64,000 bases of DNA from Candidatus Hydrogenedentota bacterium (GTDB lineage: Bacteria > Hydrogenedentota > Hydrogenedentia > Hydrogenedentales > JAEUWI01). The notes below the pieces were generated by a model. That model was not told where the DNA came from. It saw nothing but the letters and a program-made list of their open reading frames with translations, and did not search any database. The stretch lies in NCBI GenBank assembly GCA_019637335.1, contig JAHBVV010000011.1, forward strand, positions 124,001-188,000, written 5' to 3'. Shown here one piece after another: positions 12,168 through 19,278 of this stretch. The translations under genes were made by a program, and so were the position numbers. The number at the start of each line of letters is the position of its first letter. The first letter of the stretch is position 1.

Positions 12168-13574
12168 CTATCGTGCGCCCGTCTCGGATAACGACGCAAC
12201 TTCTGCGTCGCTCAGCGCGCGGGACCACACCGCTACGTCTTCGAGTTCGCCCCGAAAATGCCGGGACACCGTATCCCCGTCCTTCTCCGCGGCGATGATT
12301 AGCGGAGCCTCGGTCGGTAGCAAAGCGCCGGCGTGGGGGAGAGCCGCCACGAGCGCGCCATCGCGGAACAACGCCACTTCACGGCCGTCGTACCGGCCCA
12401 CCAGGTCCCGCCACGCCGTGGCGTCTTCCCCCGACACGGGAAAATGCGCCCGCGCGACACCCCGGTCGGTCCGCACTTCAAACGCAATATCGCTCGCGCC
12501 ATCCCCGTCCCCGTCGCCGGCGAACAAGCGGAACTGCGAGTCAGGCCCCCCAATACCATGCCCCAGCAGCGCCGCATCCCACGCCCCGGCGGGATCCCGC
12601 AGGCGCAGATACACGGTAAGCGCTTCAGCCCCGGACACCATGCCTGGGCCCGCGTCGAAATAGGCCCCGTCCAGCACGGCGCACTTCGCGCCGGGAACCG
12701 CGCCGGGACCCGACGAAAGGACATTCAGCTCAAGCTGGTAGAACTGCGGCACACTCGTCAGCGGCCGGGCCGCGCCCCGTCCCGCCGAATCCAGCTCCCA
12801 CCAGGCCAACGCGCCCGAAAGCAGCGCACGCCGCCGCTCGGATTCCGCGTCCGAAGAAAGCGTCGTGCCCTCTTCCGCCGCGTTGAGCACCTTCAGCCGG
12901 ATATTCCGAAACTGAACCACCGTCGGCGGGCCGCTGTGCAATTGCAGCGCCAGGATCCCCTGCGGCTCCGCCCGCCGCGGATCCGAATCCTCGACCTCCG
13001 CCGCCAGACGCCCGTTGATGAATAGTCGGATCTGCCCGCCGATACATACCAGGCGGTATTCGTGCCACGCCTCAAGCGCGAACCAGGCTTCCCCCGCGCC
13101 TTCCTCCAGCGGCGTAACCGTGCGCTGCCCCGCCGCGTCGAAGGAAGCACGCTCGCCGCGTAACGCCAGATCATGCCGCCCGTACTCGTCATAAAGCCGC
13201 ACAAGCCAAGGCGTACCCAGATTGTTGTCCACCTGGTACCCGCAAACATCGCCATCCGGCAGTTGCCGGCTCCGAAACTGAAAGCCGTTGTTGATCATGC
13301 CGTCCCCGTTCAGGCGCGACTCCAGCGTTAGCTCAAAATCCGCCAGCTCGCCGCCCTCCCATACCAGGTACTGGTTCTCCGCGCACGGATGCGCCGGCGT
13401 GATGCGCCCCGTAATCGCCCCATCCTCCACCGACCAGTACGCCGGATCCGTCGCGCGCCATCCATCCAGACTGCGGCCATCAAAGAGAGAAACGAACGCC
13501 TTCGCGGCCGGAACAGGCTGAACCAGCGCCCCCGCCGCCACGGCAACGGACAGCACCACTAGTGTATGACGCAT
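12168..13574 (-). CDS. Secreted DUF1080 (3-keto-disaccharide hydrolase family) protein with LamG-like C-domain
   Basis: ATG 13574 sits six bases after GGAGGA and begins a signal peptide (MRHTLVVLSVAVAAGALVQP); the product has 468 aa. Residues ~25-230 are a DUF1080 jelly roll: FVSLFDGRSLDGWRA at the start, NNGFQFRSRQLPDGDVCGYQ in the middle, and a GILALQLH / VQFRNIRLK ending, all typical of that family. Residues ~300-468 form a concanavalin/LamG-like domain ending in a DVAVWSRALSDAEVASL motif. DUF1080 proteins are common and multi-copy in planctomycete-like bacteria and some hydrolyse 3-keto-glycosides. This one probably works with the neighbouring exported glycosidases. No catalytic assignment is made. 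Confidence 0.85.
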   Translation of the reverse strand: MRHTLVVLSVAVAAGALVQPVPAAKAFVSLFDGRSLDGWRATDPAYWSVEDGAITGRITPAHPCAENQYLVWEGGELADFELTLESRLNGDGMINNGFQFRSRQLPDGDVCGYQVDNNLGTPWLVRLYDEYGRHDLALRGERASFDAAGQRTVTPLEEGAGEAWFALEAWHEYRLVCIGGQIRLFINGRLAAEVEDSDPRRAEPQGILALQLHSGPPTVVQFRNIRLKVLNAAEEGTTLSSDAESERRRALLSGALAWWELDSAGRGAARPLTSVPQFYQLELNVLSSGPGAVPGAKCAVLDGAYFDAGPGMVSGAEALTVYLRLRDPAGAWDAALLGHGIGGPDSQFRLFAGDGDGDGASDIAFEVRTDRGVARAHFPVSGEDATAWRDLVGRYDGREVALFRDGALVAALPHAGALLPTEAPLIIAAEKDGDTVSRHFRGELEDVAVWSRALSDAEVASLSETGAR

Positions 13575-13880
13575 CAATATTCCTCCATGCTCCCCGGGCG
13601 CGCGCCTCTCCCTCGGACAGCCCGCACGAGCGCACTGTTGATCACCCAGGCATCTCTCCCGGAAGCCCATTGTACGCCCCGGCCCCTCAACGCCGCCACG
13701 CCACCTCACCCTCTGTTCCGTCCCAAGTCCCGTGCCACGCGATCACACCCCCTCAGGGACTGACACGTCACACCACCCCGCCTGGCACACCAAACATCGA
13801 AGCCTACACCAAACACCCCAATCGGGCGCACAAAGCGCAACCGGCGGGTCTGTCCCGTCGTACGCAGCCGCGCGCAGCGT
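13575..13880. repeat. Spacer carrying dispersed repeat (copy 1)
   Basis: From 13754 to about 13860 the sequence matches 16989-17095: both run from CAGGGACTGACACG through CACACCAAACATCGAAGC to GGCGGGTCTGTCCCGTC. At 13732 there is also a short stub (GTGCCACGCGATC) of the ~88-bp repeat seen at 17320, 17946 and 19548. I see no gene; open frames here are accidental. Confidence 0.65.
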
Positions 13881-16409
13881 CTACTCCCGTCCGCCGTGAC
13901 GCTCCAGTAGTGCAACGACCGCCTCATCCACCGCCCGGAATGCCGTGTTCCCCCCCGCATTCGTCACCGCGAAGAACGCCATATCCCGTTCCGACGCGAT
14001 CCAGACGGTCGCAAACCATAGCGTGTTGCTTCCACCGTGGGTAAGCGCCCGACCGCCGGCCCAGTCCCGTTCGGTTACGATCCATCCCATGGCGTAATCC
14101 CCGCCCTCCGCGGGCGTATGCAGCGTGCGGAAGGTTTCCGCCGTCACGATGCCGTCTTCCCCTTGCGCACCCTTCAGGTGGGCCGCGATAAACCTGGCAT
14201 AGTCCTCCAGCGTGGTATGCACAGTGCCCGCCGGGCCGAGGACGGGCGCGTTGTCGGCATTGCGCGCGGTCGGATTCTTCGGCTTCCACGCGAGCAGGCC
14301 GCTCTCATGACCCCAGGGCGCGCCGGGCTCTGTCGGCGCGCCGAAGCCGGTGGCGGTCATGCCGAGGGGTTCGAACAGCCGCTTCCGCATGAGGTCCTCC
14401 CATCGTTTGCCCGTCACCACCTCCATCATCGCTCCCGCGACCACATAGCCCCCGTTGCTGTAGGCGTAGCGGCCTTTCTTGGACGGCGGCTTTCCGAGGA
14501 GTTCCGCCGCGCATTTCAACCGGTCCTCCGGCGCGGCGAACCAGTTGATATTGGGCGTGATGCCGCCGGTGTGGTGGAGCAGCATGGCGAGGGTGGTGTC
14601 GCGGTGGGCCCCATTCATATCCGGCGCGGCTTCACCGAGCACCTCGCCGATGGTGGCGTCCCACCGGAGCAGGCCCTCCTCAACCAGCATGCCCGCCACC
14701 GTCGCGGTCATGGCCTTCGTGTTGGAGCCGAGATGCCATGGGGCGTCGGCCTTTACGGGCGTGTCGTCTTTCGCCGATCGCGTGCCCACGGTGGCTTGCT
14801 CGATGATGGCGCCGCCGCGCATCGCAAAGGCCGCCATGGCCGGCAGCTTGTAGGAAGCGCGGATGGCCTCCAACGTTTCTTCGAAAGGTGCGTTGGGGTC
14901 CGGCTTGCCGCGGTTCATGGTTTCATCCTTCATCGCTTCATCCGGTTGATCCAACCGCTCTTCCATTGCTTCCCGTCCCTCTGCGGCCCTCCGCACCGCC
15001 CGGCGGTTGGCCGCGGTCATGGCAACTACCTTCGTGGCCATCTCGGTCATCGAGACCCCGTCGAACTGAACGGTGTCGCCGGTCTCATGGCCCATCCCGG
15101 CGAGAATACCCAACAGGTCTTCCGCGAAGCGCTGTTGCCACGCGCCCGGATGGTTCTCCTCGCAATAGGTCCTGATCTCGATCACGGAAATACCGTTGAC
15201 GGCAAGAAGCAAGTACGGTTCGCCGTCAACCGCTATTATGGGTATCTCATTCACCCAACGCTCCACGGTGAAGGATGCGGTTGATTCCGATGTATTGTCT
15301 TCCGCCCGATCTTCCACGGGATCTCCCGCTTCGACCCCTTCCCGAATGCCACCGGGCTCCGCATCCCTAATGGCAACTTCAACCGCGGTTCGCCCAGGCT
15401 TTGAAATCAGGCCGAGCCGGACGGTGTCGCCGGTCTTATGGCCCATCCCGGCCAGGACTTCGACCAGGTCTTCCGAAAACCGTTTCTGCCACTTGTCCGG
15501 GTAGGTCAACTTACAGTAGCCGATGATTTCGTCCACAAAAATGTCGTCAATGGCATAGAGAAAATACGGCTTGCCATCAACGTCCACCTCGGGGAAGCTG
15601 TCTCCCCAGCGCACGTCGGTGAAGGGCGCAAGCTTCGGGAAGTCGTCTCCCCCGATCCCGACAGCGAAGTAGAGGATGGCCGGCACACCGATCACTAGAA
15701 TTAGCACGGCAAGGATATTTCCGATAAGTGTCCGGCGCGGCGAGCACGAATCGCGCCCGGCGCCCATGAGTATCGGGTATTCACCCTTTGCCGACTCCAC
15801 GGAATCACCGGCCAGGCTTTCGAGTAGCGCAAGGAGTTCCTGGCGGCGGGGTTCCAGTTGCCTTCGCACAGCGTATTGATTGAGCAGGTAGATGCCGAAG
15901 TAGACTACGAGGAGCGAGCCCACCATTAAGGTCGTGGCCCCGATCGCCTCCGTCCAATGCGACGCGGCCTGAAAGGAAACCTGGATGAAGAACGCCGAGA
16001 TCGAGACAATGAAGGGCAGCAGGTACCACCAGAAGACATTGCGCAGCAGCCAGATCTGGTGCGACACCTGGGTGAGGGAATCCCGGGCGCTTTGCAGCAA
16101 CGAGTCGCCCGGCGAGCCGGTGTTCTGCCTGTGGCGCATCCGGTCAATCCCCATGAACCCGATGACCCAGATCAACGCCGGAACGGTCAAGTACCAGGTC
16201 CAGGGCGCCGCTATCCGGGAACCCAGGTAGAACCACAACGGAATCATGACCACGGCTACACCCACCTCGCGAAAGTCCCGCCATAGAATCGTGGATCTGA
16301 AATCCTTGCCAGCCGCGCGCACGTGTTCATGCAATGCTTTGGCATCGATCGAGACACGCGTTCTCGATGATTCCGCGCGCCAGGCCGCTTGATAGTCGTC
16401 AGGGCTCAT
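13881..16409 (-). CDS. Membrane protein with duplicated domain and C-terminal serine beta-lactamase-like hydrolase
   Basis: The 842-aa product starts at ATG 16409, overlapping the end of the sigma-factor gene by 11 bp. Residues 1-~210 contain about four transmembrane helices and a cytoplasmic-type N-terminus (MSPDDYQAAWRAE). Another helix lies near 235-255. Two tandem copies of an ~80-residue unit follow: FPEVDVDGKPYFLYAIDDIF...DKWQKRFSEDL and IPIIAVDGEPYLLLAVNGIS...GAWQQRFAEDL, both with GMGHxTGDTV. After a Glu/Asp-rich linker comes a class-C-type penicillin-binding fold with S562-x-x-K565 (GSNTKAM), Y650-S-N and H791-G-G, the three active-site motifs with normal spacing. The partner sigma factor suggests the N-terminal part is an anti-sigma/sensor. 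Ligand and enzymatic role are unknown; it could be a peptidase/esterase rather than a beta-lactamase. Confidence 0.8.
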   Translation of the reverse strand: MSPDDYQAAWRAESSRTRVSIDAKALHEHVRAAGKDFRSTILWRDFREVGVAVVMIPLWFYLGSRIAAPWTWYLTVPALIWVIGFMGIDRMRHRQNTGSPGDSLLQSARDSLTQVSHQIWLLRNVFWWYLLPFIVSISAFFIQVSFQAASHWTEAIGATTLMVGSLLVVYFGIYLLNQYAVRRQLEPRRQELLALLESLAGDSVESAKGEYPILMGAGRDSCSPRRTLIGNILAVLILVIGVPAILYFAVGIGGDDFPKLAPFTDVRWGDSFPEVDVDGKPYFLYAIDDIFVDEIIGYCKLTYPDKWQKRFSEDLVEVLAGMGHKTGDTVRLGLISKPGRTAVEVAIRDAEPGGIREGVEAGDPVEDRAEDNTSESTASFTVERWVNEIPIIAVDGEPYLLLAVNGISVIEIRTYCEENHPGAWQQRFAEDLLGILAGMGHETGDTVQFDGVSMTEMATKVVAMTAANRRAVRRAAEGREAMEERLDQPDEAMKDETMNRGKPDPNAPFEETLEAIRASYKLPAMAAFAMRGGAIIEQATVGTRSAKDDTPVKADAPWHLGSNTKAMTATVAGMLVEEGLLRWDATIGEVLGEAAPDMNGAHRDTTLAMLLHHTGGITPNINWFAAPEDRLKCAAELLGKPPSKKGRYAYSNGGYVVAGAMMEVVTGKRWEDLMRKRLFEPLGMTATGFGAPTEPGAPWGHESGLLAWKPKNPTARNADNAPVLGPAGTVHTTLEDYARFIAAHLKGAQGEDGIVTAETFRTLHTPAEGGDYAMGWIVTERDWAGGRALTHGGSNTLWFATVWIASERDMAFFAVTNAGGNTAFRAVDEAVVALLERHGGRE

Positions 16410-16920
16410 TGGAGTCCGCTTTCATAAGTTCGCCCAGTTTTCTTTTCGCGCGATTCAATTTCACCCCCACGTTAGTCTCCGAGACGCCCAGCACCTCCGC
16501 CATCTCCCGATAGCTCAGTTCGTCCAGATAGAGCAGTACCAGGGCCGCGTCGGCCTTGGGCAGTTGCTGGATGGCGATATAGAGCCGCTCCACCGTCTCG
16601 CGCTGCTGGACCTGCGCCGCGCTGTCGGCCCCTCCCGGAGATTCCATGTGGACATCCAGCAGGGGTTGCTGCCGGGCGCGGCGGGGCTTGTCCTTGCGCT
16701 GCCAGTTCATCGCGGTCTGCAACGCTACCCGGTAGAACCACGTCGCCGCGCGCGCCCGCCCCTCGAAATTCGGGAGGGAGCGCCACGCCTGAAGCAGGAT
16801 CTCCTGCGCCAGGTCCTGGCACTCCTCATGCGTCAGTGTGTACGCCCGCGCCACCTTCCAAATGGAAGCGCCATGCGTGTCCGCCCAGCGGAGAAACTGC
16901 GCCTTTCTGTCGTCGTCCAC
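16399..16920 (-). CDS. ECF-type RNA polymerase sigma factor
   Basis: The 173-aa protein has region 2 (ECQDLAQEILLQAWRSLPNF, then RARAATWFYRVALQTAMNW) and region 4 (LPKADAALVLLYLDELSYRE, then VLGVSETNVGVKLNRAKRKL), the length and order of an extracytoplasmic-function sigma factor. There is no ATG in the right place; I choose GTG 16920 behind GGAAGG (9-nt gap), with TTG 16923 equally possible. The stop overlaps the start of the downstream membrane/beta-lactamase-like gene, so the pair is translationally coupled in the way sigma/anti-sigma pairs are. Target promoters are unknown. Confidence 0.85.
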   Translation of the reverse strand: MDDDRKAQFLRWADTHGASIWKVARAYTLTHEECQDLAQEILLQAWRSLPNFEGRARAATWFYRVALQTAMNWQRKDKPRRARQQPLLDVHMESPGGADSAAQVQQRETVERLYIAIQQLPKADAALVLLYLDELSYREMAEVLGVSETNVGVKLNRAKRKLGELMKADSNEP

Positions 16921-17117
16921 CAAGGTTAGCCTTCCGTTTATTCCTATTGGTAACGCAACCAGGACTTTTCTTACAGCATACACGTCCCCAGGGACTGACA
17001 CGCCAAACCACCCCACCCGGCACACCAAACATCGAAGCTCACACCAAACGCCCCAATCCGGCGCACAACGCCCAAGCAGGCGGGTCTGTCCCGTCACCCC
17101 CATCGCCTTCCCCGGGC

Positions 17118-17152
17118 GTGCCACGGACAAGCCCGCAAGGACTTGCCCGTGC
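17118..17152 (+). repeat. REP-like palindromic repeat, copy 1
   Basis: A 35-bp element, GTGCCACGGACAAGC to CTTGCCCGTGC, whose two halves are imperfect inverted copies (GCACGGGCAAG against CTTGTCCGTGGC). Copies lie at 17226-17260 and, inverted, at 19972-20006. Confidence 0.65.
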
Positions 17153-17225
17153 ACGTCTCCCCAGGGACTGTCACGCCAAACCCAACCGGCGGGTCTGTCC
17201 CGTCACTCCCAACGCTTCCTCAGGG

Positions 17226-17260
17226 GTGCCACGGACAAGCCCGCAAGGGCTTGCCCGTGC
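17226..17260 (+). repeat. REP-like palindromic repeat, copy 2
   Basis: Differs from the 17118 copy by a single base in its 35 bp (GGGC instead of GGAC in the centre). Same orientation, 108 bp apart. Confidence 0.65.
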
Positions 17261-17319
17261 AAGTCCCCCCAGGGAGCAACACGCCAACCCACCCCAACCG
17301 GCGCACCAAACACCAACCC

Positions 17320-17408
17320 GTGCCACGCGATCGCGCCCCAGCGCGTTCGTGTGCCTGGAGCAACACCAGCCCACCATTGCCAGTACCACCCTGCACGAGC
17401 GGCAAAAC
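17320..17408 (+). repeat. Dispersed ~88-bp repeat B, copy 1
   Basis: Runs from GTGCCACGCGATCGCGCC through TTCGTGTGCCTGGAGCAA to CACGAGCGGCAAAAC. It shares its ends and centre with 17946-18035 and, inverted, 19548-19637. Confidence 0.6.
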
Positions 17409-17945
17409 CGCCCCAGTTCCGACCCCCACGCCGCGTCTCCACCAGTCCCATTTTGGGACAAACCGCCCATATCGCGCGGGAGAATCCAGAAAAACCGGCT
17501 CTATATCGGCCCGTAACTATTCGCATGCCGCCCGAATTTTTTTCTTGACAAAACGTCCCGATGGATATAGCGTAACGATATCGCGGCAGTACAGCGCGTC
17601 AAGAAACGATTCCGAAACAGCAACCCACCTGAAGGGGCTACTCCGATGGACCTGTTCTCGCGCCACCAGCGGTTGTTCGACTCGCTCCCTGGCGCGAGCC
17701 CCATCCAGCAACGAAAGCGCAAACCACTGGGAGCGCGGGTCGTAGATGCGCCGTGGTGGACGGCGCGCCCGCCACGCGCCGAACGCGTAACGGATCGGGG
17801 ACATACCCGCAAGCGGCGGACCTCCGGCACGCCACCAGGCGATTGGCCACACGAGCGGCGCAACAGGAGGTTGGGTATCCCGCCCGACACGTGGCCCGTC
17901 CACGATCGCGCCAGGCCGTCCCTTCGTTCAATCGCCCCGATTCCT

Positions 17946-18035
17946 GTGCCACGCGATTCCGCCGCAGGCGGATTCGTGTGCCTGGAGCAGAAACAAGCCA
18001 ACGCTACCAGCGCCACCAGGAACGAGCGGCGCAAC
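17946..18035 (+). repeat. Dispersed ~88-bp repeat B, copy 2
   Basis: GTGCCACGCGATTCCGCC ... GATTCGTGTGCCTGGAGCA ... GAGCGGCGCAAC. An internal stem CCGCCGCAGGCGG can form near its start. Confidence 0.6.
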
Positions 18036-18205
18036 AGGAGGTTGGGCATCCTGCCCGGCGCAACATGCGCTCCCGATGCGGCAGTACCTGCAATTTCGTC
18101 GCATAACCGAGCGTTTCCACGTGGACACGCCAGGGGGGCCTGACCTGAAAGCCAGCCACCTACGAAATCGACGCGCGCGCCGCCGCAGACAGAAATGTCC
18201 GCGAT

Positions 18206-19278
18206 CCTACGACACCGGGAACCGACTGAGCCGCGTGGACATTCCGAACGGCATGCACACGGCGTATGCGTATGATACGTCCGGGCGGCTGGACGCCATC
18301 CACCACAAGGACGGGACTACGGTGGTCCAGGGCTTTGACTACACCTTCGACAATGGCGGCAACATCACCCGCATCGACCACGAGGATGGCAGCTATTGGG
18401 CCTACGATTACGATGGGCGGGACCGGCTCATCGAGGCCGAGCGCTACGACGACACGCCAACGCTCCTCCACCGCTACACCTACACCTATGACGATGCCGA
18501 CAACATGCTCACGAAAGCCGTCTACGATCCGAGTGGCCCGAGCACCGTCACCACCACCTTCACCTACAACGACGCCAACGAACAAACCAGCATGAGCGAC
18601 GGGACCACCACGACGAACATGACCTATGACGAATGGGGCCGTCTGGTGGAGAAGGACGACGGAACCTACACCGCCACCTACGTTTGGGGACTTGGTTCCG
18701 AACTACTGCAGTTTGATTCGAATTTCCCCGGACAGGGAACCGTCAGCTATCAGTATGGAGGTGATGGCAAGCGCCGTAGCGTGGACGACGGAACGAGTTT
18801 TGTGTGGTACAACTGGGCCAGAAACATTCCCATTAATGAAGAGGACCAAGGAGCAGGTGTCGGCGATGGGCCGTTAAGCAAGACTCTCATTGCCTTTCGA
18901 GCAGAAGTGGGAGGGAGCGATCCATCCTCGGGCACATATACCTATTTCGCGACGGACCACCTAGGTTCGATCCGTTCGACCTTTAACCAAGCGAAGAACA
19001 ATACGGGGAATGCCGAACTCGCTCCGTTTGGCACGCTTTATCAGGCTGCATTGCCAGGGGCAACGAGAGCACGATATAGCGCCCACACGCTTGATAACAA
19101 AACGGGACTGTACTATACCGAATATCGCTACTATGCGCCGGATAATGCACGATGGCTGAACCGGGATACCTTCGGCGCGATTGATGGACCGAACCTCTAT
19201 GCCTACGTGGGCAACAATCCGATATCGTACTGGGACCCCAATGGAGCAAGCCAGGTTCCAACGGAAGCTGGTGGATAA
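18206..19278 (+). pseudogene. RHS/YD-repeat core fragment
   Basis: About 350 codons encode YD repeats (YAYDTSGRLDAI, YAYDYDGRDRLIEAE, YTYDDADNML, YDEWGRLVEKD) and then the RHS core signature (YRYYAPDNARWLNRDTFGAI, LYAYVGNNPISYWDPNG). Full RHS proteins carry an N-terminal export domain and dozens more repeats, and the core is followed by a variable toxin-like tip. Here the repeats begin abruptly at SYDTGNRL, right after repeat-laden non-coding sequence, and the frame ends ~10 residues after the core. No ribosome site precedes it. I read it as the 3' remnant of an RHS gene, though a short in-frame start at 18076 exists. Confidence 0.7.

Follow-up and report, generated by a model that had tools for sequence, protein, structure and literature searches.

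The window, the 64,000-nucleotide stretch of DNA analysed here, carries on its minus strand what we read, with a probability of roughly 55%, as a self-contained ECF operon, in which an anti-sigma-like membrane protein bearing an exchangeable outer sensor module is joined to a sigma factor whose output is directed at the operon itself. The membrane protein is most likely an anti-sigma factor with several helices, and its S12 serine hydrolase domain an exchangeable ligand sensor which may double as output enzyme; the role taken here as sensory could equally be that of an effector. The evidence comes from the conservation of the pair in two phyla, from a promoter-like site found in front of it, and from the variety of domains, several of them catalytically dead, attached to one conserved membrane core.

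The sigma gene and its membrane partner

The sigma gene (16399-16920, minus strand) has a GTG start, a TTG at 16923 being an alternative start. The product is an ECF factor made of sigma2 and sigma4 regions without sigma3, and matches Pfam Sigma70_r2 (PF04542, 2e-12), Sigma70_r4_2 (PF08281, 7e-14) and, above its curated cut-off, TIGR02937. The gene downstream (13881-16409, minus, ATG start) encodes a membrane protein of 842 aa, the putative anti-sigma factor. The two genes overlap by 11 bp (16399-16409), as reported in an earlier reading of the sequence alone, which gave no strand for either. No repressor-like ORF was noticed next to the pair when the window ORF list was inspected by eye, and no Rfam match was found in 13400-18200.

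The membrane protein starts with a cytoplasmic tail (residues 1-46; 16272-16409, minus) which fits the pattern M..D..Q.AW....DA..L...V....RD. In 52 relatives the tail is as conserved as the best-conserved helices, D4, W10, L26 and D45 being nearly invariant, and because of these residues we infer that it is the candidate sigma-binding segment. Residues 1-46 contain no cysteine; the HxxxCxxC zinc motif is thus absent, and the protein does not group with zinc-binding anti-sigma (ZAS) factors. Class I anti-sigma factors (ASDI) carry a four-helix N-terminal domain, usually of 50 residues or more, which is detected by family models. Neither feature is found here, the cytoplasmic tail being just 46 residues long, and no Pfam or NCBIfam anti-sigma model being among the matches of the membrane protein.

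Residues 47-250 (15660-16271, minus) make up five transmembrane helices and their cytoplasmic loops. The helices, placed by hydropathy at about residues 49-67, 70-88, 130-148, 158-176 and 232-250, agree with the four or more counted in the sequence-only reading; the first four make up the family's conserved core. The cytoplasmic loops are conserved among relatives (52 sequences), and a topology with the N-terminus inside and the C-terminus outside is predicted from the basic loops, which fall on the cytoplasmic side. No match was obtained when PDB sequences were searched with the membrane domain, or a plasmid collection with the N-terminal half of the protein.

Two copies of a domain named after its GMGH motif follow, at residues 257-344 (15378-15641, minus) and 374-480 (14970-15290, minus). 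They score 128 and 137 bits, respectively, against a profile whose seed included both window copies. The two tandem units, already seen in the letters, are true repeats, their mutual alignment scoring 229, whereas 300 shuffles reached 50 at most. The tandem duplication was seen only in the window; every other inspected relative with a GMGH domain has it singly in this protein. The domain matched no Pfam family. Its AlphaFold model, obtained with the two window copies as input, is weak (pLDDT 55), and Foldseek returned non-significant matches only, several of them to PDZ domains (best E 0.34); a PDZ-like fold is a lead only.

Towards the end of the protein, residues 509-834 (13908-14885, minus) make up a serine hydrolase domain of the S12, or class C beta-lactamase-like, type (PF00144 E=6.5e-50), which is the only Pfam match above cut-off in the whole 842-aa chain. 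The catalytic set noted earlier is complete and stands in the PF00144/S12 fold, with SxxK at 14715-14726 (S562 at 14724-14726, K565 at 14715-14717), YSN at 14454-14462 (Y650-S651-N652) and HGG at 14031-14039 (H791-G792-G793), all on the minus strand. The score against the class C beta-lactamase model NF033085 is 38.7 bits, far from the cut-off of 415. The nearest solved relatives are ClbP and other S12 peptidases, and PF00144 takes in many esterases and peptidases which are not targeted by beta-lactams.

The membrane domain was found in 9 of the 68 genomes, all from one order, by which the phylum of the window was sampled, once in each genome. An overlapping sigma gene lies directly upstream of the membrane gene at all nine loci, and the sigmas of the eight other orthologues are 71-77% identical to that of the window. 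In Planctomycetota a profile of the membrane domain detected it in 18 of 392 genomes, and in 42 of 170 genomes of one order. Six weak matches were obtained in 398 genomes of Pseudomonadota; the five examined are short membrane proteins beside ECF sigma genes. Sigma is directly upstream in 51 of the 52 membrane genes inspected in context, and the overlap is of the same 11 bp in 33, in genomes which are mostly drafts and with locus counts which are not independent; neighbour genes were identified by ORF inspection and local profiles. The coupling to a sigma factor proposed in the sequence-only reading, which orthologues lacking the sigma gene would have contradicted, therefore stands, and the ECF neighbours of similar architecture which that reading suggested looking for exist in both phyla. 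No account of this architecture was found in the literature covered, most subscription journals lying outside the search.

In the tree of the sigma/membrane pair, the window copy groups with the Planctomycetota copy G176 and with G063, and not with copies of its own genus (support is moderate, 90/73 and 84/89); therefore cassettes and modules have probably moved. A single ORF fusing sigma and membrane protein in G872 (L201, 6495-7571, minus) was considered as evidence of an interaction and rejected, because, to judge by its relatives, one base seems to have been lost where the genes overlap, and the frame meets a TGA later; it is likely a damaged gene or an assembly error. The window operon is bracketed by two 96-bp direct repeats (13745-13840 and 16980-17075) which share 86% identity. 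They were discarded as evidence of a mobile element, a few further copies being found elsewhere in the genome.

Dense short repeats of 76-, 68-, 45- and 36-bp families fill the interval from the sigma gene to the next gene (17107-18057). Just past them is an ORF (18076-19278) in which YD repeats of the RHS type and the conserved end of an RHS core were recognised by eye. The next gene downstream of the operon (12168-13709, minus) looks by eye like one for a DUF1080/LamG-type secreted protein. Genes of similar appearance occur close to the operon in G063 and G208 as well, which probably reflects how common they are. In one genome, G878 (L191), genes which by eye resemble those for an M56 protein of the BlaR1 type and a repressor of the BlaI type stand beside the pair, downstream of the membrane gene and on the other strand.

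A promoter-like site in front of the operon

A putative promoter for the sigma factor, TGTAAG-N18-ACCAAT, is located at 16946-16975 (minus), and the site TGTAAG-N18-AC[CT]AAT lies upstream of sigma in 38 of 51 operons of the two phyla, mostly 567 bp before the start of the membrane gene. The site at 16946-16975 is the only exact one in the window and in the genome to which the window belongs. Among 29 genomes bearing the system, 23 have one exact copy, at the operon, and six have none; only one of 23 genomes without the system (G870) has the pattern. When one mismatch was allowed, the site was found at the operon in all 23 system-bearing genomes rescanned. One-mismatch matches elsewhere are few, and show no excess over a control with the reversed pattern; one of the extra matches, in G981, immediately precedes another sigma/membrane pair. 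Read most simply, the distribution of the pattern points to an autoregulatory promoter with essentially one target. As the site is found at the operon without excess elsewhere, the sigma factor probably drives its own operon only, within scans which would miss weaker promoters with diverged sites.

Outer modules and the fate of the S12 domain

The same core is followed by different C-termini in different relatives. Some proteins, of about 200 residues, have no outer module; others carry extra helices, the GMGH domain, TPR repeats or an S12 domain. The commonest module is the GMGH domain, which is more frequent than the hydrolase. TPR repeats replace hydrolase or GMGH at the end of the sigma/membrane core in L122 and L123 (G981 and G971). 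S12 domains of two types are found in eight of the nine orthologues of the phylum; the ninth, from G052, ends just after GMGH, with no hydrolase behind. Planctomycetota members are mostly devoid of a fused S12. The position of S12 in the fused proteins also varies, GMGH being located before it, after it (G989), or missing altogether (G921). Because relatives carry no outer module, GMGH alone, TPRs or extra helices, the comparison indicates that the hydrolase is not the core of the system, and that the outer end is exchangeable.

S12 proteins are also encoded next to the pair as separate genes. In G370, G460 and G921 such a gene separates sigma from the conserved site; in other genomes they lie downstream, as in G921's relatives in layout G989 (two genes), G872, G981c (48 bp away) and G981b (524 bp away). 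In G370 (L197, 3856-5446, plus) a decayed fragment of the sigma N-terminus is found between the conserved site and the inserted S12 gene, which suggests a duplication or an insertion inside the operon. The S12s of these operons fall in at least five separate lineages of the S12 tree; on this tree, S12 hydrolases have been recruited to the operons at least five times, in fused, upstream or downstream position. Such repeated recruitment lends support to the early suggestion that the hydrolase is a sensor or an effector of the system. Stand-alone S12 relatives in the phylum of the window have no related sigma adjoining.

Fused and unfused S12 proteins differ in their catalytic residues. SxxK, YxN and HxG are intact in 7 of 13 fused domains, the window included, and all seven belong to the phylum of the window. 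Catalytic residues are lost in the other six, which represent three lineages. Serine is replaced by glycine at the nucleophile in four relatives, as the result of a single ancestral event; both serine and lysine are lost in G378, to which G872 is related; lysine is replaced by glutamine in G063, a single draft-genome sequence. By contrast, serine and lysine are kept in all 27 unfused S12 proteins of the same alignment. A Fisher test of the fused losses vs. 22 unfused proteins gives p=0.001, a value which ignores relatedness, the losses being three events on the tree. An intact S12 gene is found in the same operon as a dead fused, or formerly fused, copy in G921, G989 and G872. The dead fused copies are presumably ligand-binding versions.

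These data can be read in other ways. The S12 domain could simply be the output enzyme, tethered to the anti-sigma protein so as to be co-expressed and localised with it, the signal being sensed by the core or by the GMGH domain. Bare four-helix versions associated with sigma, two of which (G981b and G981c) are followed by a separate S12 gene, agree with this possibility, as do the prevalence of GMGH over the hydrolase, the intact catalytic set of the window protein, and the restriction of the site to the operon, which makes the enzyme the evident product. Nevertheless, fused copies have been kept at full length after loss of catalysis in three lineages, a fate odd for an enzyme tether, and we hold this explanation unlikely, albeit deserving attention.

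Far less credit can be given to a beta-lactam or muropeptide receptor, in which acylation of S562 would free sigma, as in BlaR1 or as proposed for PbpP/sigma-P. The glycine found in place of serine in four relatives, the loss of lysine in two lineages, and the many relatives without hydrolase all argue against it, and so do the many members of PF00144 which are not beta-lactam targets and the ClbP-like peptidases nearest to the domain among solved chains. On its side are the intact SxxK/YSN/HGG set of the window protein, the confinement of all seven intact fused copies to one phylum, and the precedent of a penicillin-binding protein encoded beside sigP-rsiP, whose catalytic serine is needed at native level (PMC8092216). 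Given the catalytic losses and the relatives lacking the hydrolase, the alignments indicate that acylation of S562 cannot be the general signalling mechanism of the family, and cell-wall or beta-lactam sensing, as inferred in the sequence-only reading, finds no support in this general form; beta-lactam acylation is possible in the intact protein of the window. Equally improbable is an incidental fusion, by which a mobile sigma/membrane cassette acquires, without function, neighbours as common as S12 genes: cassettes do cross species lines, the window copy being nearer to a Planctomycetota copy than to those of its own genus, and the window genome has six PF00144 places, but at least five S12 lineages are involved, several of which are joined in frame with their motifs preserved, or lodged between the putative promoter and sigma, S12 recruitment seems far above the expectation for random genes as neighbours, and no other enzyme class recurs likewise in neighbour lists checked by eye.

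Proposed mechanism and relation to known systems

In the self-contained operon that we favour, sigma would be held at the membrane by the 46-residue cytoplasmic tail and the four-helix core. The C-terminus is predicted to lie outside the cytoplasmic membrane, and the sensory module would consist of the fifth helix, the two GMGH domains and S12. The ligand of S12 might be, as a guess, a cell-envelope compound containing D-amino acids or esters. Upon meeting the ligand, the membrane protein would be reshaped or degraded, and the sigma factor set free to transcribe from TGTAAG-N18-AC[CT]AAT. Since the site is essentially confined to the operon, the response would consist in further synthesis of sigma and sensor, together with the hydrolase of the operon. 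S12 would have begun as an active enzyme, repeatedly recruited; the fused copies of several relatives, now dead, would bind the ligand, some of these relatives having an intact S12 enzyme elsewhere in the operon. In the species of the window one intact protein may serve both as sensor and enzyme.

The nearest functional analogue, to judge by comparison, is PbpP. In Bacillus thuringiensis the gene for this penicillin-binding protein adjoins those for sigma-P and RsiP; the sensing of beta-lactams depends on the protein and, at native level, on its catalytic serine (PMC8092216). Both systems encode together an ECF sigma, a membrane anti-sigma factor (putative here) and a protein of the penicilloyl-serine type, in both cases proposed as sensor. 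However, PbpP is a separate protein, and site-1 cleavage leads to the degradation of RsiP. The hydrolase of the present system belongs to PF00144/S12 and is either fused to a five-helix protein or encoded in the same operon; relatives can dispense with it, and in several of them the fused copy is catalytically dead. The operon is accordingly not regarded as a sigma-P/RsiP/PbpP system.

The membrane protein resembles BlaR1/MecR1, in which several helices are also followed by an extracellular domain of the penicilloyl-serine type, a possible ligand sensor. BlaR1 additionally contains a protease domain in the cytoplasm, and its target is a repressor which binds DNA, whereas no M56 metallopeptidase was found in the Pfam scan of the window protein, the hydrolase is of the PF00144 type, and the partner is a sigma factor. 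As no protease domain was found by Pfam and no repressor among the ORFs inspected by eye, the BlaR1/MecR1-BlaI/MecI system is excluded, and the distinction drawn in the sequence-only reading is upheld. CnrY is a class II anti-sigma factor with a short cytoplasmic tail (PMC7406223); the 46-residue tail is similar to it in size, rather than to the four-helix class I domain, a likeness which implies no claim of homology. It differs in that four or five transmembrane helices follow, and modules which can be exchanged. Fold family, catalytic motifs and extracytoplasmic location are shared with ClbP and the D-amino-acid peptidases of S12. Unlike those peptidases and esterases, the domain is here fused to a putative sigma regulator, and has lost catalytic residues in several relatives.

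More tentatively, and at somewhat less than even odds, the operons may represent an undescribed ECF family, featuring a multi-helix anti-sigma factor with an exchangeable module, in which captured S12 enzymes became dead ligand sensors and the sole strong target of sigma is its own operon. If this were true, an enzyme would have turned into a receptor regulating its own replacement enzyme. As many as 102 of 157 ECF groups have been called unstudied (PMC8103513). The signal is not known for most ECF groups, and in this family nature has already swapped domains on a single conserved sigma/membrane core, and provides dead and living versions of one sensor-enzyme. With a promoter-like site that apparently has a single target in each genome, sensing module, signal and output become accessible to simple reporter assays, and the conversion of an enzyme into a receptor can be traced in a bacterial signalling protein.
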